From NCBI RefSeq assembly GCF_009834765.1, contig NZ_WVHP01000001.1, positions 62,001-126,000 on the forward strand: 64,000 nucleotides of DNA. The letters are read 5' to 3'. The position numbers were made by a program, and so were the translations under genes. This document shows, one piece after another, positions 10,740-20,857 of the stretch (within the stretch, counting starts at the first letter, position 1; the number at the start of each line of letters is the position of its first letter). The stretch comes from Saccharibacter sp. EH611 (GTDB lineage Bacteria; Pseudomonadota; Alphaproteobacteria; Acetobacterales; Acetobacteraceae). Under the pieces are notes generated by a model. That model did no database searches. It was not told the origin of the DNA and saw only the letters and a list, made by a program, of their open reading frames with translations.

Positions 10740-12587
10740 TCAAGAGGGCGCGTCGGTTCCTTCATCTAATTCTGGTTGTTCACCCCGTTTTAACGCTTCC
10801 ACAACCTTCATACGCGCTAATATGCTCACTGGGAAGCGCTCACCCTCACTCGAGTCGGAAGATTTTGAATACGCTGCCATCAACACATTCTCTACCGACT
10901 TCTGAACCTCACGCTCAAAAGACGCAAAATTCACGAGGGCATAAAAATGCCACCAGCTTTCCAATACATCAACCTTCAGCATATCATCATCGGAGCGTGC
11001 TGACTGTAAGGTACGCGGTAAAGGCCCATCAATCAGCGATGAGAGTACCTCTCCCAAACCATGCTCTTGCATCCATTTCTGGCAACTCTCGGCCGTTAGC
11101 TCTTCGCTTTGATCGGCCCATTCCAACACCGCTTCCCGCACATCATTTAAGACGTCAGGCAGCATTAACTGCGTATAAGCTTGTTCAATATGGGGTAAAA
11201 TTGCAGGGTGACACACAATAAGCACCGTCAATACATTCAGGCGCTCAACAGCACCTTCCGCAACGGAACGAGGCTCTCTTAGCCCTGTAGATACCCTTCC
11301 CGGTGCACGTACCCCCTTTTTCCCTTTATGACGGCGGAAACGCTCAAAGAAGAGATCCAAGAACGTGCTGCGATATTCACTCGCTAAGTTACGCTCTGGA
11401 ATCTGCCGTGACAAAGCAATTAATCGCTCCCGCAACGCCGCTCTTTGCTCAGGGCCCGGGTTAACCTCGCGCACACTTAACAGGTTAAAGAGTTCCTCCA
11501 CCATCGGTCGCGCCTGCGCAAAACGCTCGGCCATCGCCGTAGCGCCTTCACGCTGGATAAAACTATCAGGATCATCACCTTCACTTAAGCGGCAAAAACT
11601 CAGACTTTTTTCAGCTGAGAGAAGCGGCAAAGCGACTTCACATACCCGTAATGCAGCGCGCTGCCCGGCTTGGTCTCCATCAAGGCAGATAATAGGCCGT
11701 GCCGTTAAACGCCAAAGAAGCTCTAGCTGCTCCTCCCCTAGGGCCGTTCCCAAGGGGGCCACGGCGCCCTGTAAGCCCGCCTGATCAAGTGCGATGACAT
11801 CCATATACCCTTCAACCACCACGAGCTCAGCGCCCTTCCTGACGGCTTGTGTGGCGTGATCAAGGTTAAACAACGTACGCCGTTTGGAAAAAAGCGGCGT
11901 TTCTGGGCCATTGAGATATTTCGGCTGTCCATCTCCTAGAATACGCCCCCCAAAGGAGATCACACGCCCTTTCCGATCACGAATAGGGAACGTGACACGG
12001 TTAAAGAACAACTCACCGCGAGGTTGGCCAACTTCATCAAGGCGCATCAAACCAACCTGTGCGAGCTGCTCAACCGTTATCCCATCAGCACGCAGAGCGG
12101 CAACAAGAGAGCGACCATCACCAGACCAGCCCAAGCCAAAGCGCTCCAGCGTTTCCTCTCTCAGGCCACGCCTCGTTAAATACGCTAGCCCCTCTCGTCC
12201 CTCCGCTGTATAAAGATTTCGGCGATAAAGCTCTTGCACACGTGCTAAAACATCATAAAGCGACTGACGCTCTCGTGCTTTCTCTTCCTGCTTGGGATCA
12301 TCCTTTGGGATCTCCATTCCCGCTTCAGAAGCAAGTTTTTCAACGGCTTCTGGAAAGCTACTTCCATCACTTTGCATCACAAAGCTAATGGCATCTCCAT
12401 GCACCCCACAGCCAAAACAATGGAAGTGATCATCATAAATATAAAAGGACGGACTCTTTTCGCCATGAAAGGGGCAGCATGTTTTCCAGTTCCGCCCAGA
12501 GCGCGTTAATTTGTGACGCCGCCCAATCAGGGACGTTAACGGAGTACGTTGACGGAGTTCGTCGAGAAAATGTGTGTCGAAAGCCAT
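10740..12587 (-). CDS. dnaG: DNA primase DnaG
   Basis: Synthesises RNA primers for replication. The 615-residue protein has an N-terminal CHC2 zinc ribbon (CCPFHGEKSPSF, then CFGCGVHGDA) at about 37-65. The catalytic core follows with the family motif VVVEGYMDV at about 262, the start of the Toprim domain, and the acidic LDGDQAGQ metal site near 310. The C-terminal helicase-interaction region is less conserved. It shares orientation with rpoD downstream. Upstream, on the other strand, an EamA-type transporter gene diverges from it. Confidence 0.96.
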   Translation of the reverse strand: MAFDTHFLDELRQRTPLTSLIGRRHKLTRSGRNWKTCCPFHGEKSPSFYIYDDHFHCFGCGVHGDAISFVMQSDGSSFPEAVEKLASEAGMEIPKDDPKQEEKARERQSLYDVLARVQELYRRNLYTAEGREGLAYLTRRGLREETLERFGLGWSGDGRSLVAALRADGITVEQLAQVGLMRLDEVGQPRGELFFNRVTFPIRDRKGRVISFGGRILGDGQPKYLNGPETPLFSKRRTLFNLDHATQAVRKGAELVVVEGYMDVIALDQAGLQGAVAPLGTALGEEQLELLWRLTARPIICLDGDQAGQRAALRVCEVALPLLSAEKSLSFCRLSEGDDPDSFIQREGATAMAERFAQARPMVEELFNLLSVREVNPGPEQRAALRERLIALSRQIPERNLASEYRSTFLDLFFERFRRHKGKKGVRAPGRVSTGLREPRSVAEGAVERLNVLTVLIVCHPAILPHIEQAYTQLMLPDVLNDVREAVLEWADQSEELTAESCQKWMQEHGLGEVLSSLIDGPLPRTLQSARSDDDMLKVDVLESWWHFYALVNFASFEREVQKSVENVLMAAYSKSSDSSEGERFPVSILARMKVVEALKRGEQPELDEGTDAPS

Positions 12588-12681
12588 AAAATCCGTCTGA
12601 TACGCCCATTCACGTTTGATCTATCTCATACGATCATGCAGATCATAGCATGACTCACTTCATAGATCACGGAGACACTCT

Positions 12682-13641
12682 TTGCGTATGAAACACACGA
12701 CGCTTGTTGGTTTTGGGTGCGGTGCGGCCGCAGGAGCACTTTGGGGGCTAGCCCTGCTAGCACCTGCGTTGATCCAACCGTTCAGCCCTCTCCAACTCGC
12801 TACCGTGCGTTACATGACCTACGGTCTCTTTGCTCTTGTCGCTCTTCTTCCACGTTGGCGACATCTTGTCGCCCGCCTAACAGGGTCAGCGTGGCGCGAG
12901 CTTATTATTCTCAGCTTTTTGGGGAATATTCTCTACTACGTCATCCTCGGTACAAGCGTTCAGCTCTGCGGTATTGCCATGCCAACACTCATCGTTGGCT
13001 TTTTGCCCGTAACCGTCACGGTCATCGGGGCCCTTGAAGACGGTGCCGTCCCTTTACGACGCCTTGTGCCGTCTATTCTCTTGAGCACAGCAGGCATAAG
13101 CTGCATTGCGTGGCAGGGCTTTCATATGGCAAGCCACAGCACACAAGGCCATAGTGCGTTTTCCCTCATAATCGGCTTGCTCTGCGCGGTCATCGCTCTG
13201 ATTTCTTGGAGCGCTTATACCATTCGCAATGCACGCTGGCTTAACCAGCCGAATCCCCCCACCAGTGAGCATGAATGGAATATGCTTACCGGACTTGTTA
13301 CGGGAGCGATGGCCCTTCTGATGCTGCCTGCTGCCTTCCTGTGGCAATCCGTTCCAACGGGAAAATGGGGGCTCTTTATCGCCGTTTCGATGGGCATGGG
13401 CCTCTTAGCTTCTGTCGCGGCCAACAGTTTTTGGAACCGTATGAGCCGCCTCGTCCCTCTCACAATGGTCGGCGGGATGATCCTCTTTGAAACGCTCTTT
13501 TCGCTCATTTACGGATTTTTGTGGGAACAGCGCTGGCCAACACTTCCCGAGGCCCTCGCCATTATTCTCGTCAGCAGCAGTGTGCTGAGCTGCATGTATG
13601 CCCATCGGCCGAGCAAACATACACTGGACGGACACGCTTAG
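12682..13641 (+). CDS. EamA/DMT-superfamily transporter
   Basis: Predicted inner-membrane metabolite exporter or importer of the drug/metabolite transporter superfamily. The roughly 319 residues contain about ten hydrophobic helices in two EamA repeats (the first up to about residue 145, the second from about 165). The substrate cannot be told from sequence. The TTG at 12682 lies 7 nt after GGAG, while an ATG six bases later has a longer spacing of 13 nt; either could be the start. The gene sits on the opposite strand between dnaG and yqeY, which in many genomes are neighbours, suggesting a later insertion. It shares a convergent terminator with yqeY. Confidence 0.82.
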   Translation: MRMKHTTLVGFGCGAAAGALWGLALLAPALIQPFSPLQLATVRYMTYGLFALVALLPRWRHLVARLTGSAWRELIILSFLGNILYYVILGTSVQLCGIAMPTLIVGFLPVTVTVIGALEDGAVPLRRLVPSILLSTAGISCIAWQGFHMASHSTQGHSAFSLIIGLLCAVIALISWSAYTIRNARWLNQPNPPTSEHEWNMLTGLVTGAMALLMLPAAFLWQSVPTGKWGLFIAVSMGMGLLASVAANSFWNRMSRLVPLTMVGGMILFETLFSLIYGFLWEQRWPTLPEALAIILVSSSVLSCMYAHRPSKHTLDGHA

Positions 13642-13655
13642 ATCGTTCCGTCATA

Positions 13656-13693
13656 AAAGAAGGCAGTCCCACGACCTTAGGACTGCCTTCTTT
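13656..13693. terminator. Bidirectional terminator between the EamA transporter and yqeY
   Basis: Perfect 14-bp inverted repeat (AAAGAAGGCAGTCC / GGACTGCCTTCTTT) with a 10-nt loop, placed between two convergent genes and able to stop both transcripts. Confidence 0.87.
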
Positions 13694-13700
13694 AAATCTC

Positions 13701-14153
13701 TTAGCCTAAATGCTCTTTGACAAAAGCACTTGCTTTCGCCGCATTTAAAGCCGCGCCAAAGCGTTTTTTAAGCACCGCCATCACGCGGCCCATATCTTTC
13801 ATGCTCTCAGCTTTCACCTCAGCAACAGCCTCTTTAATCGCTGTCTTCACGGTGTCATCATCCAACTCGGCCGGCAGATAAGAACGGATCGTCTCAATTT
13901 CACGCTCTTCTTTTTCTGCTAATTCTGGACGGTTACCCTTGGTATACATCTCCACTGATTCTGAGCGCGATTTAATCATAGAACGCAAAGCCAGAAGGAT
14001 ATCCTCATCACTAACGACGGCATCCTTCGCACGCGCTGCCACATCTAAATCTTTAACTTTCGCTGTAATTGCACGCAGCTGAGCGACGCGTTCAGACTGC
14101 CCAGCCTTCATTGCGGCTTTAATATCGTCCATAAGACGTGCGCGAAGTGACAT
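13701..14153 (-). CDS. GatB/YqeY domain protein
   Basis: Small helical protein of the YqeY family, related to the tail domain of the GatB amidotransferase subunit that contacts tRNA. Its precise role is unsettled. The 150-residue product shows the family sequence course: LRARLMDDIKAAMKAG, then LRAITAKVKD, EREIETIRSYLP, and the C-terminal GRVMAVLKKRFG. Of two in-frame ATGs, the one at 14153 sits 7 nt after AGGAG, while the one at 14159 would be only 1 nt away, so 14153 is chosen. YqeY genes are commonly close to dnaG and rpoD, as here. Confidence 0.88.
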   Translation of the reverse strand: MSLRARLMDDIKAAMKAGQSERVAQLRAITAKVKDLDVAARAKDAVVSDEDILLALRSMIKSRSESVEMYTKGNRPELAEKEEREIETIRSYLPAELDDDTVKTAIKEAVAEVKAESMKDMGRVMAVLKKRFGAALNAAKASAFVKEHLG

Positions 14154-14247
14154 AACCATACTCCTGCCATGATGTTTTTCTTAGTCAAAAAAGACGCTTA
14201 AACCTCTACCAGCCTCTTATGAGCCTGTCGATAAAGAGGAGAATCTC

Positions 14248-14261
14248 GGAAAAAATTTCCC
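14248..14261. promoter_or_regulatory. Palindromic box 1 upstream of carA
   Basis: GGAAAAAATTTCCC: GGAAA and TTTCC form a perfect inverted repeat around AAA. It lies about 110 bp before the carA start and is nearly identical to box 2, which is 41 bp downstream, close to four helical turns. Candidate operator; the binding protein is unknown. Confidence 0.5.
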
Positions 14262-14288
14262 AGTTTGCAGATCTTCTCTTTTCATTCC

Positions 14289-14302
14289 GGAAAAAACTTC
14301 CC
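14289..14302. promoter_or_regulatory. Palindromic box 2 upstream of carA
   Basis: GGAAAAAACTTCCC differs from box 1 at a single base and keeps GGAA/TTCC symmetry. It overlaps a weak -35-like TTCCCA (14299-14304), which is 16 bp from a TATCTA -10-like element (14321-14326). A protein bound here could therefore act directly on initiation of carAB. Confidence 0.5.
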
Positions 14303-14366
14303 ATTTCATCTCTCATGCCCTATCTAGGCGGTAGGTCTCTGAGGACGGCACGAGGCGGAGAAAGCC

Positions 14367-15749
14367 ATGAACATTGACGCAATTATTCAAAAAGCAGGGG
14401 GCGTTACCGAAATCGCCCAGCTTACCGGTGTTGGCAGCGAGGCTGTGCGCAAATGGCGCCAGTCCGGCACAGTGCCCGCTAAACACTGGCCTGCACTCCT
14501 CCACGTGCCGGGAATTACCCTGGCAGATCTGAACGATACTTCAGAGGAAGCGCCTTCTATGTCACACGCCTCCAATACAACCCGTCCAAACGGCGCAACA
14601 GCGGCTCTTGCCCTTGCTGATGGCACCCTCCTATGGGGGCGCGGCTTTGGCGCTCATAATGACGCCGCCGTTGGAGAGCTTTGCTTCTCCACGGGTATGA
14701 CAGGCTATCAGGAAACACTGACAGACCCTTCTTTTGCCGGGCAGATTGTGACCTTCACCTTCCCACATATCGGCAATGTCGGCACGAATCCCGAGGATAA
14801 CGAAGCGCCGACAATGGCAGCCCTCGGCTTGGTCGTGAAAGAGGACGTAACCGCTCCAGCCAATTGGCGCTCTCATCAGCCCCTTAATGAATGGCTGATC
14901 GCTCAGGGGCGCAGTGGCATTAGCGGCATTGATACACGCTTCATAGCGCGCACCTTACGCGACAAAGGCCCACAAACAGCGGTGCTCTCCTTCCCACGCA
15001 ACGGGCAGATTGACGTTGACGATCTGAAGGAAAAAGCGCGCACATGGCCGGGCCTTGTCGGGATGGATCTCGCCAAGGACGTCGCGCAAGGCAAACGCCA
15101 CTGGACAAAGACGGTCTGGCAAAATCAACGTCCTGAAAAAGACGTAAAGCGCCGCGTCGTCGCTCTTGATTATGGAGCGAAAGATAACATCCTCCGCAGC
15201 TTGGTCTCTGCTGGTTGTGATGTCCATGTCCTCCCCGGCACCGCAACCGGCGAAGAGATTTTGGCCCTGAAGCCAGAAGGTGTTTTCCTCTCCAACGGCC
15301 CGGGCGACCCTGCGGCAACGGCCACTTATGCTGTCCCCGCTATTCAGGCTGTGATGAATGCTGACGTGCCGATCTTTGGGATCTGCCTTGGCCACCAGCT
15401 TCTTGCTCGTGCTCTAGGCGGCAGCACCTATAAGCTAGAACGTGGTCACCGCGGTGCTAACCAGCCGGTTAAGGACATCACCACAGGCAAGGTAGAAATC
15501 ACCAGCCAAAATCACGGCTTTGCTGTAGATGAGAAGAGCCTTCCTGAAACGGTGAAAGTCACCCATGTCAGCCTCTTTGATGGCTCTAACGAAGGGATCG
15601 CCTCTACGGTGAAAGAAGCGTTCTCGGTGCAATATCACCCAGAAGCAAGCCCCGGGCCGACCGATAGTTTTTACCTCTTTGAACGCTTTGTTTCCGTCAT
15701 GGATCGTCGTGCGAACACACAAGGCACAACTCAGAAGGCAGGAGCATAA
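14367..15749 (+). CDS. carA: Carbamoyl-phosphate synthase small subunit with N-terminal HTH domain
   Basis: Glutaminase subunit that delivers ammonia to CarB for carbamoyl phosphate, the precursor of pyrimidines and arginine. Residues 76-460 are a normal CarA: an N-terminal small-subunit domain, then a class I glutamine amidotransferase with nucleophile C340 (GICLGHQ) and H424/E426 (YHPEASPGP). Unusually, residues 1-64 form a separate small domain with a Cro/YdaS-like helix-turn-helix look (AGGVTEIAQLTGVGSEAVRK, then W and R). The GGAG site 6 nt before the ATG at 14367 is ideal for the long form. An internal ATG at 14559 (M65), with AGAGGA about 10 nt upstream, would give the bare enzyme. carB follows after 3 bp. 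Confidence 0.93.
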   Translation: MNIDAIIQKAGGVTEIAQLTGVGSEAVRKWRQSGTVPAKHWPALLHVPGITLADLNDTSEEAPSMSHASNTTRPNGATAALALADGTLLWGRGFGAHNDAAVGELCFSTGMTGYQETLTDPSFAGQIVTFTFPHIGNVGTNPEDNEAPTMAALGLVVKEDVTAPANWRSHQPLNEWLIAQGRSGISGIDTRFIARTLRDKGPQTAVLSFPRNGQIDVDDLKEKARTWPGLVGMDLAKDVAQGKRHWTKTVWQNQRPEKDVKRRVVALDYGAKDNILRSLVSAGCDVHVLPGTATGEEILALKPEGVFLSNGPGDPAATATYAVPAIQAVMNADVPIFGICLGHQLLARALGGSTYKLERGHRGANQPVKDITTGKVEITSQNHGFAVDEKSLPETVKVTHVSLFDGSNEGIASTVKEAFSVQYHPEASPGPTDSFYLFERFVSVMDRRANTQGTTQKAGA

Positions 15750-15752
15750 GAC

Positions 15753-18700
15753 ATGCCAAAACGCACTGATATCCGCTCCATCCTCATCATTGGTGCTGGC
15801 CCGATCATTATCGGCCAAGCCTGTGAGTTCGACTATTCCGGAGCGCAAGCTTGTAAAGCTCTGAAGGAAGAAGGCTATCGCGTTATTCTTCTGAACTCCA
15901 ATCCGGCTACGATCATGACCGATCCCGGATTGGCCGATGCGACCTACATCGAACCGATCACACCGGAATTTGTTGAACGCATCATCCTTAAAGAAAAGCC
16001 CGATGCGGTCTTGCCCACAATGGGCGGACAGACAGCTCTTAATGCCGCCATGGCCCTTGATAAGTCTGGCTTTTTAGAAAAGCACGGCGTTGAGCTCATC
16101 GGTGCTCGCGCAGATGTGATTGACCGCGCTGAAGATCGCTTCAAATTCCGTGAAGTGATGGAAAAGATTGGCGTGGAAAGCCCACGCAGTACCATCGCTC
16201 ATTCGATTGAAGAAGCCCGCGAGGCGGTTGAGCATACCGGCCTACCCGCCATTATCCGTCCGTCCTTCACGATGGGAGGATCAGGCGGCGGCATCGCCTA
16301 TAATCGCGAAGAATTCGATGAAATCGTTCGTAGTGGTCTAGACGCCTCCCCCACAACGGAAGTTCTGATTGAAGAATCCGTCATCGGGTGGAAAGAGTTC
16401 GAGATGGAAGTCGTGCGTGACACGGCGGATAACTGCATCATTGTATGCTCCATCGAAAATATCGACCCAATGGGTGTGCATACTGGGGACTCCATCACTG
16501 TTGCCCCCGCTCTAACGCTGACAGATAAAGAATATCAGCGGATGCGTGATGCTTCCATCGCCTGCCTGCGTGCGATTGGCGTGGAAACAGGTGGGTCTAA
16601 CGTCCAATTCGGCGTCAATCCCGTTGATGGCCGGATGGTCGTCATTGAGATGAACCCTCGCGTCTCGCGCTCCTCTGCTCTGGCCTCTAAAGCAACGGGT
16701 TTCCCGATTGCTAAGATCGCCGCAAAGCTGGCTGTTGGCTACACGCTTGATGAGCTCACCAACGATATTACCGGCACCACGCCTGCCAGCTTTGAGCCGA
16801 CCATTGATTATGTGGTCACCAAAATTCCACGCTTTACCTTTGAGAAGTTCCCAAGCACGCCAGCGTTGCTCTCCACGTCTATGAAGTCTGTGGGGGAAGC
16901 AATGTCCGTGGGACGTAGCTTTGCCGAATCTCTCCAAAAGGGCCTCCGCTCTATGGAGACTGGCCTCACGGGGCTTGATCCTGTCGAAGCGCCCGGCGAT
17001 GGCTCCCCAGATGCTTACCGTGCCGCTCTCTCTGAGCCGCGTCCAGAACGCATCTTGATGGTCGCTCAGGCCTTCCGTGCAGGCCTCTCCTTGGAAGACA
17101 TCCAAGAAGCTTGCCATTTTGAGCCTTGGTTCCTTCGTCAGATTGAAGCGCTGGTGGCAACAGAGCGCCAGATTGAGCACGATGGCCTCCCTCAAGACGC
17201 CATCGACCTGCGCAACATCAAGGCTCAGGGATTCTCAGACCGTCAACTAGCTCGCCTGTCTGGTAAGAGCGTCAAAGACATTGAGGCTTTGCGTAACAAG
17301 CTGAACGTCCAGCCTGTTTATCGCCGCATTGATACCTGCGCAGCTGAGTTTGCCTCCGATACGCCGTATCTCTACTCCACCTATGAAGGCGGATTCGGCA
17401 CACCGGAATGTGAAAGCCGCCCGACAGATCGTGATAAGATCATCATTCTCGGCGGTGGCCCTAACCGGATTGGCCAAGGGATTGAGTTCGATTATTGCTG
17501 TGTTCATGCTGCTTATGCTCTGCGCGAAGCCGGCTTTGAAACCATCATGGTCAACTGTAACCCAGAGACCGTTTCCACCGACTATGATAGCTCCGACCGT
17601 CTCTATTTCGAGCCACTGACAGAGGAAGACGTTGTTGCCCTCGCCCGCACGGAGATGACAAATGGCCGTCTGCTTGGCTGCATCGTGCAATATGGTGGGC
17701 AAACACCGCTGAAGCTCTCCCGTGCGCTTGAGGCCGCTGGCATCACCCTGCTAGGCACCCCTGCTGATGCGATCGACCGCGCTGAAGACCGCGAACGCTT
17801 CCAAGACATGCTGCGTAAGCTGGGGCTGCGTCAGCCGAAAAACGGCATTGCTCATCGCCCTGATATGGCGCTCGATGTTGCCGAAGAGGTGGGCTATCCC
17901 GTCGTTGCGCGTCCATCCTATGTGCTCGGCGGCCGTGCGATGGAGATCGTCTATGATCGCGCAGGGTTGTCGCACTATCTCAACACTGTGCTGCGCGCTG
18001 CTGGCGAAGAAGTCGCCTCCGCTCCTGTTCTGCTCGACCATTACCTCAATGATGCCATTGAGGCTGATGTGGACTGCATCGCAGACGGAGAGAATGTGTA
18101 TGTCGCTGGTGTGATGGAACATATTGAGGAAGCAGGCATTCACTCCGGTGACTCTGCATGTTCCCTCCCTCCTTACACGCTCTCACCCGCTCTCGTCACA
18201 GAGCTGAGAGAACAAACGGAAGCCATGGCGCGTGAGCTCGGGATTCGTGGCTTGATGAACGTGCAATTTGCCATCAAGAATGACGAAGTTTTCGTTCTTG
18301 AGGTGAACCCTCGCGCTTCTCGTACCGTGCCATTCGTAGCCAAGGCAACCGGTGTTCCTGTCGCGAAAATTGGCGCACGCATCATGGCCGGCGCCAAGCT
18401 GACAGACTTCACTCTTGATGGTCGCAGCGTAGCCCCTCATGTCGCAGTGAAAGAGGCTGTCTTCCCGTTCCACCGCTTCTCTGGCGTTGATACGATCTTA
18501 GGGCCGGAAATGCGCTCAACAGGGGAGGTTATGGGCCTCGACAGCACGTTTGAAACCGCTTTTGCGAAGTCTCAGCTTGCGGCTGGCGTTAACCTCCCAA
18601 GCGAAGGCACGGTCTTCCTCTCAGTGCGTGATAGTGACAAGGCACATGTGCAGCCTGTCGCGCGGAAGCTGGTGGATATGGGCTTTACCATCCTCGCCAC

Positions 18701-19007
18701 ACGCCATACGGCTGAACGTCTCGAAGAAGCCGGTATTCCCGTCACACGCACCAACAAGGTATTGGAAGGCCGCCCGCATTGTGTCGATGCCATTCGCTCA
18801 CGTGAGGTGCAAATGGTCATCAACACCTCGCAAGGAGGGCAAGCTGCTCGTGATAGCTTTGATATCCGCCGTTCAGCACTCACGATGGGGGTTCCTCACT
18901 ACACCACCATCGCTGGTGCACGTGCTGCTACCTACGCGATTGCAGCCCTTAAAAACGGCGATCCGGGAGTGGCTCCACTACAGTCTTACTTCCACGGAGA
19001 CTTCTAA
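15753..19007 (+). CDS. carB: Carbamoyl-phosphate synthase large subunit
   Basis: Builds carbamoyl phosphate from bicarbonate, ammonia and two ATP. The 1084-residue protein has the duplicated architecture: a first carboxyphosphate half ([22 protein letters not shown] at the start, ATP-grasp to about 400), an oligomerisation domain, and a second carbamoyl-phosphate half starting near residue 560 ([20 protein letters not shown]). A C-terminal methylglyoxal-synthase-like allosteric domain spans about 940-1084. The segment [10 protein letters not shown] and the metal-binding [15 protein letters not shown] are both intact. It follows carA at 3 bp and is followed by two hairpins before greA. Confidence 0.97.
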
Positions 19008-19026
19008 GACACGTTCGGTAGGCTTG

Positions 19027-19045
19027 CAGCACAGGCTCTGTGCTG
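19027..19045 (+). terminator. Small hairpin after carB
   Basis: Perfect 8-bp stem (CAGCACAG / CTGTGCTG) with a 3-nt loop followed by TTTAT, 20 bp past the carB stop. The short T-run suggests partial termination. Confidence 0.5.
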
Positions 19046-19069
19046 TTTATCCTGCCTAGCGTTATTGCT

Positions 19070-19129
19070 GCCGACTCCTTCCCCTCCGCAGGGTTATCCC
19101 TATGGAAGGGGAAGGAGCGGCGCGTTTTT
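19070..19129 (+). terminator. Large hairpin with T-run between carB and greA
   Basis: Stem GCCG-A-CTCCTTCCCCT paired with AGGGGAAGGAG-CGGC, leaving one bulged A, with an internal mini-hairpin in the loop and GCGTTTTTG after it. This looks like an efficient intrinsic terminator that separates carAB from greA-ilvA. It ends 35 bp before the greA start. Confidence 0.75.
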
Positions 19130-19163
19130 GTTTGTTCTATTGTCTAATCTTGAGGGAAGCACT

Positions 19164-19637
19164 GTGCAGAAAAGCCCCATGACCGCCCAAGGGCTCAAAC
19201 GCCTTGAGGACGAGTTGCGTCACCTAAAGACGGAGGCCCGTCCGGCCGTTATTCGTGCTATCGCCGAAGCGCGCTCTCATGGTGACCTCTCAGAAAACGC
19301 TGAATATGACGCCGCACGCGACCGTCAGTCCTTCATTGAAGGGCGCGTTCTTGAGCTGGAGAGTCTCATCTCCACCGCAGAGGTGATTGATCCTTCCACG
19401 CTTTCAGGCGACCGCGTGCAGTTCGGCGCAACAGTTGAGCTCGTGGATGAGGAAACCGATAAAGAGAGCACGTATCAGATCGTTGGCCTCCATGAAGCCG
19501 ACATCAAAGAACGCCGGATCTCCGTTTCCTCTCCGCTTGCTAAGGCCCTCATCGGTAAAGATGTGGGAGATTCTGTCTCTGTGCCCGCACCGGGCGGAGA
19601 CCGCACGTATGAAATATTGAAAGTGGTGTATAAATAA
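19164..19637 (+). CDS. greA: Transcript cleavage factor GreA
   Basis: Rescues backtracked RNA polymerase by stimulating cleavage of the nascent RNA. The 157-residue product has the N-terminal coiled coil with the tip motif DLSENAEYDAARD (functional acidic residues D and E) and the C-terminal FKBP-like domain. The frame is open to 19065, but that would overlap the terminator. A GTG at 19164, preceded by GAGGGAAG 4 nt upstream, gives the family's usual length and N-terminus (VQKSPMTAQGLKRLEDEL). Gene order carA-carB-greA is common in alphaproteobacteria. The TAATG overlap couples it to ilvA. Confidence 0.95.
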   Translation: MQKSPMTAQGLKRLEDELRHLKTEARPAVIRAIAEARSHGDLSENAEYDAARDRQSFIEGRVLELESLISTAEVIDPSTLSGDRVQFGATVELVDEETDKESTYQIVGLHEADIKERRISVSSPLAKALIGKDVGDSVSVPAPGGDRTYEILKVVYK

Positions 19638-20857
19638 TGACTGATTGTGCTTCCGATACTCGGGTCACTCTGGACGATGTTCGCGCCGCCCAGAAACGTA
19701 TTGCAGCAACTATTGCCCGTACTCCAACGATTCGCAATGTTGCTCTTTCCCGAATTACGGAAGCCGACATTAGCATTAAACTCGACAATCTTCAGGCTAT
19801 CGGTTCATTCAAAGAACGTGGAGCCGCCAACCGCATGGCCCTCCTCACGCCTGAAGAACGTGCCCACGGCGTCATCACTGTGTCCGCTGGGAACCATGCG
19901 CAAGGTGTTGCCCGTCAAGCGAGCCTCCTTGACCTTGATGCCACCATCGTGATGCCCCGCTTTACGCCTGCGACAAAAGTTGCTGCCACAAAAAGCTGGG
20001 GCGCGCGTGTCGTCCTTGCCGGAGATAATTTTGACGAAGCCTGTGCTACTGCCGAAGAGCTACGTCAAAAAGAAAACCGCACCCTGATCCACCCTTTTGA
20101 TGACCCTGCCGTGATCGCAGGCCAAGGCACGTGCGCGCTCGAAATGCTCGAAGATGCCCCTGACCTTGATATGGTCGTGGTGCCCATCGGCGGTGGGGGG
20201 CTTATCTCCGGCTTTTTCACCGTTTTAAAGGCTCTTCGCCCACAAACGAAGATTTATGGCGTTCAGGTTTCTGCCTACTCTCCTTTGCGTCATTACCCCG
20301 AAGGCCCCGTGGACGTGCCAGGAGGCTCAACGTTGGCGGAAGGAATCGCTGTCGTTCATCCGGGTCATCATTGCCTCGACATTATTAACCATCAGCTTGA
20401 TGGTGTCTTTGTCGTTGATGAACTGCAGGTTGAAAGCGCGATTACCACGCTTGCAGAGAAAGCCCGACAAGTCTCCGAAGGCGCAGGTGCGGCTCCATTA
20501 GCCGCTATCTTAGCCAATCACGACTTCTTTAAAGGTAAAAAAGTCGGGTTTCCTATTTCTGGCGGAAATATTAATGCCCGCATTCTCGCGCATGTCATTT
20601 TACGCTCGCTCCTCCGCGAAGGCCGTATCTTGCGCCTTGTGTTCCAGATCCCCGATCGGCCTGGGTTGCTTGCGGACATTTCGCAGAAAATTGGTGATTT
20701 TGGCGGGAACATTATTGAAGTGTCTCATCACCGTCTCTTCGCCGCTCCTTCTGTGCAAACGGCTGAACTGGTTGTGATGATTGAAGCACGCGATACTGAA
20801 CATGCCCTACAGATCGAAAGTGATCTCTCCCAACATTACACAGTGCGCCGAGAGTAA
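19637..20857 (+). CDS. ilvA: Threonine ammonia-lyase, ACT-domain type
   Basis: PLP enzyme that deaminates threonine to 2-oxobutanoate, the first step to isoleucine. The 406-residue product carries the PLP lysine K59 in IGSFKERGAANRM, the SAGNHAQGVA substrate loop, and the glycine loop IGGGGLISG near residue 184. A C-terminal ACT domain spans roughly 325-406 (FQIPDRPGLLADIS), the shorter one-ACT form. That arrangement is found in both catabolic and biosynthetic enzymes, so its feedback behaviour cannot be told. It overlaps greA by one base in TAATG, so it is co-transcribed with it. Confidence 0.92.
   Translation: MTDCASDTRVTLDDVRAAQKRIAATIARTPTIRNVALSRITEADISIKLDNLQAIGSFKERGAANRMALLTPEERAHGVITVSAGNHAQGVARQASLLDLDATIVMPRFTPATKVAATKSWGARVVLAGDNFDEACATAEELRQKENRTLIHPFDDPAVIAGQGTCALEMLEDAPDLDMVVVPIGGGGLISGFFTVLKALRPQTKIYGVQVSAYSPLRHYPEGPVDVPGGSTLAEGIAVVHPGHHCLDIINHQLDGVFVVDELQVESAITTLAEKARQVSEGAGAAPLAAILANHDFFKGKKVGFPISGGNINARILAHVILRSLLREGRILRLVFQIPDRPGLLADISQKIGDFGGNIIEVSHHRLFAAPSVQTAELVVMIEARDTEHALQIESDLSQHYTVRRE

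Follow-up and report, generated by a model that had tools for sequence, protein, structure and literature searches.

A Cro-like domain fused to carbamoyl-phosphate synthase probably controls carAB through a pair of palindromic boxes in Acetobacteraceae

Two near-identical boxes lie between the divergent genes yqeY and carA in a stretch of Saccharibacter sp. EH611 DNA (contig NZ_WVHP01000001.1, positions 62,001 to 126,000 of the forward strand). The whole 64,000-nucleotide stretch is referred to here as the window, and coordinates are counted from its first nucleotide. The product of carA, the small subunit of carbamoyl-phosphate synthase, carries an N-terminal helix-turn-helix (HTH) domain, and the locus thus raises the question of whether this enzyme controls its own gene. 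We conclude that it probably does: with a probability of roughly 0.7, CarA would repress carAB as a "trigger enzyme", its HTH binding the box pair. The sequence data support the pair itself, its conservation, its restriction to HTH-carA where this was checked, its loss together with the HTH, its covariation with residue 32, and its overlap with the predicted promoter. The two boxes are:

14246 to 14262, no strand assigned: box 1 (predicted distal operator), TCGGAAAAAATTTCCCA, matching 11 of the 12 fixed positions of TGGGAA-N5-TTCCCA
14287 to 14303, no strand assigned: box 2 (predicted proximal operator), CCGGAAAAAACTTCCCA, matching 10 of the 12 fixed positions and overlapping the predicted -35 element

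An earlier, sequence-only reading of the window had described the boxes as GGAAAAAATTTCCC (14248-14261) and GGAAAAAACTTCCC (14289-14302), with starts 41 bp apart and a single base of difference, and this description was confirmed. Its statement that both are symmetric held in part: box 1 has arms of 5 bp (GGAAA/TTTCC) around AAA, but the arms of box 2 are only 4 bp long (GGAA/TTCC). In the frame of the whole family the unit is 17 bp, TGGGAA-N5-TTCCCA. A motif scan of the 2.28-Mb genome, proposed in the same reading, found GGAAAAAANTTCC exactly at these two places only, and the match is thus not due to chance. The strict pair pattern occurred once in this genome (control, 0). A single box with up to two mismatches occurred at 114 places versus 79 in the control, which is background level, and the distinctive feature is therefore the pair. 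No regulon was found among the single-box matches listed in the window's genome, a result still compatible with a weak regulon.

Conservation was assessed across the family, which the named relatives on the tree place as Acetobacteraceae in a broad sense. At 114 loci, the sequence preceding HTH-carA (at most 350 bp) was scored against the 12 fixed positions of TGGGAA-N5-TTCCCA; removal of near-copies left 105 loci. Two boxes scoring at least 9 and lying 30-60 bp apart were present at 93 of the 105 non-redundant loci, in 1 of 2100 mononucleotide shuffles, and in 0 of 105 reversed sequences. At least one box scoring at least 10 was present at 100 of the 105 loci (shuffles, 29/2100; reversed, 0/105). 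The pair is kept across the family, the opposite of the absence from relatives that the sequence-only reading had named as counting against it.

Searches of whole genomes gave the exact single motif in 94 of 150 genomes, mostly as one or two copies, and the strict exact pair in 151 of 299, at most once per strand per genome (control, one match in one genome). Exact single sites elsewhere include examples in G032 (C2), G087 (C3), G017 (C45), G103 (C14 and C20) and G147 (C1:512014). Genome G098 contains 11 exact TGGGAA-N5-TTCCCA sites. They fall into two sequence types, and nine are one palindrome once strand is taken into account; they are probably a repeated element.

Spacing within the 93 two-box loci falls into classes of 38-40 bp (54 loci), 43-44 bp (13 loci) and 48-51 bp (14 loci), with other values at 12 loci. 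The 41-bp spacing of the window is uncommon (2/93). Expressed in helical turns, 38-40 bp corresponds to 3.6-3.8, 48-51 bp to 4.6-4.9 and 41 bp to 3.9; the 38-40-bp and 48-51-bp classes are about one turn apart, and no class is a whole number of turns. The earlier argument that both boxes face the same side of the helix fits the window, but it does not generalize, 38-40 bp being the commonest spacing.

The protein proposed to read the boxes is encoded immediately downstream, with the following features:

14367 to 15749, forward strand: carA, HTH-CarA fusion, carbamoyl-phosphate synthase small subunit, 460 amino acids (TIGR01368, with GATase and CPSase_sm_chain)
14373 to 14534, forward strand: HTH domain of CarA, residues 3-56 (carph-isopro, NF046037)
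14436 to 14465, forward strand: recognition helix, residues 24-33 (SEAVRKWRQS), with the codon of residue 32 at 14460-14462
14532 to 14600, forward strand: linker between HTH and enzyme, residues 56-78, variable and of low confidence
15753 to 19007, forward strand: carB, large subunit, 3 bp after the end of carA (NF003671, 1705 bits)

The enzyme portion is a glutamine-dependent small subunit (TIGR01368, 433 bits; cutoff, 307), in which C340, H424 and E426, which we take to be the catalytic triad, are invariant in 43 sequences. The HTH belongs to the carph-isopro family, with 65.3 bits for the whole protein and 70.2 for the domain alone (curated cutoff, 38). It resembles P22_Cro (PF14549; 16.8 bits for the whole protein and 21.0 for the domain, gathering cutoff 30.2) and YdaS (PF15943; 20.7 and 25.3 bits, cutoff 30), and is not filed as a member of either. 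AlphaFold predicts helices at residues 3-10, 13-20, 24-33, 38-45 and 52-55 with a mean predicted local distance difference test (pLDDT) score of 82, and the full-length model is nearly the same. Mean pLDDT in the linker region falls to 66 (residues 51-60) and 50 (residues 61-70), and linker length varies in the alignment. The best fold match is Xfaso 1 Cro (3bd1; template modeling score 0.75, Foldseek E 0.0059, Z 8.0), which was also returned by sequence search (E 0.0012). Other fold matches are N15 Cro (6on0, solved on its operator) and P22 Cro (1rzs).

Of the 397 genomes of the family, 373 gave a match to a 64-residue HTH query and 380 to a longer HTH-CarA query; the position of the HTH match on carA was read in part of the matching genomes. 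Among the matches listed, the closest named relative by HTH-CarA protein is Gluconobacter cerinus (72%). By difference of the listings, 24 genomes lack an HTH match, 17 of which also lack a CarA match. Four of the other seven (G028, G171, G202, G397) contain a CarA fragment only, starting at query residue 100 or later and lying at a contig end.

Intact carA without the HTH was found in three genomes of the family (G031, G141, G233). None of the three has a box pair upstream, the best single site in 600 bp scoring 7-9 of 12. As a control, 15 HTH-less carA genes of other families had no pair and no site above 9 in about 600 bp. In a tree of the CarA core, G233 stands beside HTH-bearing G032 (support 100/95), and G031 and G141 beside HTH-bearing G092 (98/94). 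Since each HTH-less branch adjoins an HTH-bearing genome, the HTH was lost in two separate events if the fusion is ancestral.

These loci also bear on the neighboring gene:

13701 to 14159, reverse strand: yqeY-like divergent neighbor (PF09424, 133 bits)

The boxes could in principle serve yqeY, or both genes equally, as the divergent yqeY is the adjoining gene at 67 of the 76 loci examined, among them two of the three without the HTH. However, the HTH-less loci L183 and L184 retain yqeY without boxes, and six of eight HTH-bearing loci without adjacent yqeY keep both boxes (L018, L022, L106, L110, L112, L121); the remaining two have one good box (L145) and boxes of a variant type (L029). Box 2 is, moreover, locked to the predicted carA promoter elements. 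Because the boxes are mostly kept without adjacent yqeY and absent at HTH-less loci that retain it, they belong to carA, and assignment to yqeY is scarcely credible.

For analysis of covariation between protein and box, 30 loci were added from genera with few exact pairs, giving 144 loci. Residue 32 lies toward the end of the recognition helix; 126 loci encode Q at this position, 14 encode S, 3 T and 1 A. Counted per arm with near-copies included, Q32 loci have 425 arms with G and 40 with C as the base beside GGAA, and S32 loci have 39 with C and 1 with G. Q32 thus goes with GGGAA and S32 with CGGAA; all 14 S32 loci have mostly C, and the T32 loci are mixed (8 G, 3 C). As a control for relatedness, the alignment columns of the fusion protein were ranked by mutual information with the state of the box, using 100 of the 144 loci and columns with less than 20% gaps (44 loci were dropped for a reading frame below 330 amino acids or no scorable arm). 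Residue 32 was the top-ranked column, with the rest of CarA included (0.498 of 0.634 bits), followed by residue 348 in the enzyme (0.449 bits). The boxes are absent after HTH loss, are mostly kept without adjacent yqeY, and switch their outer base with residue 32, and for these reasons we tie them to the HTH. The earlier proposal that the fused HTH binds the boxes and makes carAB autoregulated is supported by these results together with the conservation of the pair.

Binding of CarA to the boxes is itself deduced from sequence, and the boxes might instead be operators of a separate transcription factor, with the CarA HTH unrelated to them. The three HTH-less genomes are small (1.7-2.1 Mb), and another regulator could have been lost from them too. 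However, box and residue 32 change together, and box pair and HTH were lost together twice. Pairs were listed for 84 genomes; the position of HTH-carA was known for 53 of these pairs, and all 53 lay directly upstream of it, 15-82 bp before the HTH match. With the pair single per strand and at HTH-carA in these cases, it marks no second regulator gene there. Two other small carph-isopro-like open reading frames (ORFs) of the window's genome (G000:C25:66495-66629, L251; G000:C17:1590-1706, L252) have different recognition helices and no boxes. A separate factor is, in our judgment, distinctly improbable.

How binding would act depends on the promoter. The sequence-only reading had noted that box 2 overlaps a weak -35-like element, which was upheld for the window's clade:

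14297 to 14302, forward strand: predicted -35 element CTTCCC, the right arm of box 2; the C before TTCCCA is present in 89% of 46 long-leader loci
14320 to 14325, forward strand: predicted -10 element CTATCT, 17 bp after the -35 element; T in 84% and A in 82% of 46 long-leader loci

A consensus promoter scan of the window found no promoter here. Promoters of G. oxydans are described as lax (-35 'ttGnnn', -10 'Tatnnn') in the accessible part of PMC5756330, the main text of which does not contain the terms carA or carbamoyl. Alignment on box 2 of the 93 two-box loci revealed two layouts. In 47 short-leader loci, TTG (93, 91 and 85%) precedes box 2, which exactly fills the 17-bp spacer and is followed by a -10-like element with A in 87% at its second base; the commonest start is an ATG about 12 bases past box 2 (about 60%). 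The 46 long-leader loci, which make up the window's clade, lack a conserved TTG; here the right-hand arm of box 2 has the sequence CTTCCCA, and TA follows 17 bp on. CTTCCC and CTATCT are putative promoter elements. Within one family, the predicted promoter has shifted relative to box 2 (spacer versus over the -35 element) and the box pair has stayed. The bin names of two loci may be wrong: L022 bears the title Asaia bogorensis and shares its short-leader layout with Roseomonas relatives, and L029, from a metagenome bin titled Acidobacteria, encodes a CarA at zero tree distance from that of family genome G106.

In both layouts the predicted core promoter lies under the inner box, with the outer box upstream, and a repressor is therefore the simplest reading. 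HTH-CarA could also bind the boxes and activate carAB, perhaps in one promoter layout only: the center of box 1 in short-leader loci is about 60 bp upstream of the predicted start, and activators can work from about this distance. We consider activation unlikely, because box 2 occupies a spacer of normal length (17 bp) or lies over the predicted -35 element, and an operator in either position is typical of repression.

In the repression mechanism that we propose, the N-terminal Cro-like HTH, on its flexible linker, would bind the two 17-bp palindromes at the carAB promoter. Since each palindrome has two half-sites, it would probably take two HTH copies, and the pair, with four half-sites in all, would match an (alpha-beta)4 carbamoyl-phosphate synthase, which has four HTHs. 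Binding to the inner palindrome should block RNA polymerase, because this palindrome covers the predicted core promoter, and would keep carAB expression down when CarA is abundant. Physical binding, repression, stoichiometry and any effector are what we infer here. A more speculative extension, which we hold to be possible but doubtful, is that carbamoyl-phosphate synthase is a metabolite-gated repressor, in which effector-dependent assembly presents one, two or four HTHs. The four half-sites would then read the (alpha-beta)4 state, and carAB transcription would report the balance of ornithine and uridine monophosphate (UMP) directly. For the E. coli synthase, the accessible part of PMC6245113 describes ornithine as favoring tetramers and UMP the heterodimer, and oligomerization as having no effect on the regulation of activity. 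Repression by the tetramer would, however, run against simple end-product repression.

Several observations weigh against repression by HTH-CarA. Twelve of the 105 loci fail the two-box rule, several with one good box, and among those failing it L236 has two perfect boxes 82 bp apart; the spacing of the pairs is variable, ranging from 32 to 54 bp. L029 and L299, which form one lineage with Q32 and D25, carry C-type boxes. Eight of the 126 Q32 loci are C or tied, the six beyond these two including the window and L094, a near relative of it, both with C in the left arms of their boxes despite Q32. S32 or A32 has one, perhaps two, origins in the tree (support 92/87; one Q32 row within the clade is unplaced), and the covariation thus represents few events seen many times; as evidence it is of a good kind but modest in number. 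Evidence from the fold is moderate: Foldseek returned nothing below E 0.001, and HTH-like domains of the enzymes MPnS (Z 7.2), HEPD and HppE match nearly as well as Cro, a warning that an HTH fold by itself proves nothing. These three are not known to bind DNA.

Such enzyme domains would agree with the HTH being a structural or oligomerization module, and the boxes, whose centers are A+T-rich, could then be DNA-shape or RNA elements. However, it is the arms (GGG/CCC) that are conserved, and the central five bases are variable, with G or C common at their ends. Most residues of the recognition helix from E25 to Q32 are invariant or nearly so, A26, R28, K29 and W30 being invariant across 43 HTH sequences. 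An RNA element was rejected: strand folding was no better than in shuffles, an Rfam scan of positions 12500-20500 (E up to 1) gave no match, and the predicted start is downstream of both boxes. We judge these alternatives very unlikely.

The carph-isopro domain also occurs outside HTH-CarA. A search returned 30 loci, 29 of which were read (the window's own, L153, was left out). L169 and L176 are HTH-CarA of the family with boxes; the 27 loci outside the family have other recognition helices and no box pair, the best single site scoring 9 of 12. The domain looks like a mobile add-on, because it is also found ahead of mitofilin-like proteins (L158, L167) and, at L166, of a YjeF-like NAD(P)HX repair enzyme. 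Crotonyl-CoA carboxylase/reductase (TIGR01751, a test made for L172) is a further fusion partner, at L172, L178 and L328-L350. These fusions belong to another alphaproteobacterial family, with a match to the HTH query in 24 of 31 genomes. Upstream of 13 of the 17 readable loci (of 23) is a GTCAA...TTGAC repeat, which may be an operator or just promoter elements. A second candidate operator, GTGTTG-N5-CAACAC, reached 9 of 12 in 10 of 21 loci (L328-L350, 23 loci, minus L347 and L340; shuffles, 78/1050; reversed, 0/21); it is not conserved throughout, and no claim is made for it.

Among the papers listed from the literature searched, with most subscription journals outside it, no description of the HTH-CarA/box system was found, and for the carph-isopro domain no paper beyond the family name. 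HTH-CarA suggests a possible role for this domain. Carbamoyl phosphate feeds both arginine and pyrimidine synthesis. E. coli balances it via many separate regulators, according to the accessible part of PMC6245113. In the family described here, a DNA-binding domain appears to have been joined directly to the enzyme. The proposed enzyme-operator pair contains a natural specificity switch, residue 32 versus one base, so that a simple swap could test the link.

NadR and PutA are known enzyme-fused regulators, and among the closest systems for comparison is the group II biotin protein ligase (BirA), in which both the enzyme and the operator are different. Most targets of BirA are other genes, unlike HTH-CarA, whose box pair, where checked, lay at the operon of the enzyme itself and nowhere else. 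Group I relatives of BirA lack the domain, as stated in the accessible part of PMC4016012. The CarA HTH shares its domain family with the carph-isopro proteins (NF046037), and is like the Cro proteins of P22, N15 and Xfaso 1 in sequence and fold, but differs from these in being fused to a metabolic enzyme. E. coli carAB is controlled by the trigger enzymes PepA and PyrH, which have a second, regulatory role, and also by ArgR, PurR, RutR and IHF; PepA is described as having no canonical DNA-binding motif (both from the accessible part of PMC6245113). The control proposed here resembles that of E. coli carAB in being enzyme-based, and differs in that the controlled enzyme itself carries the putative DNA-binding domain.
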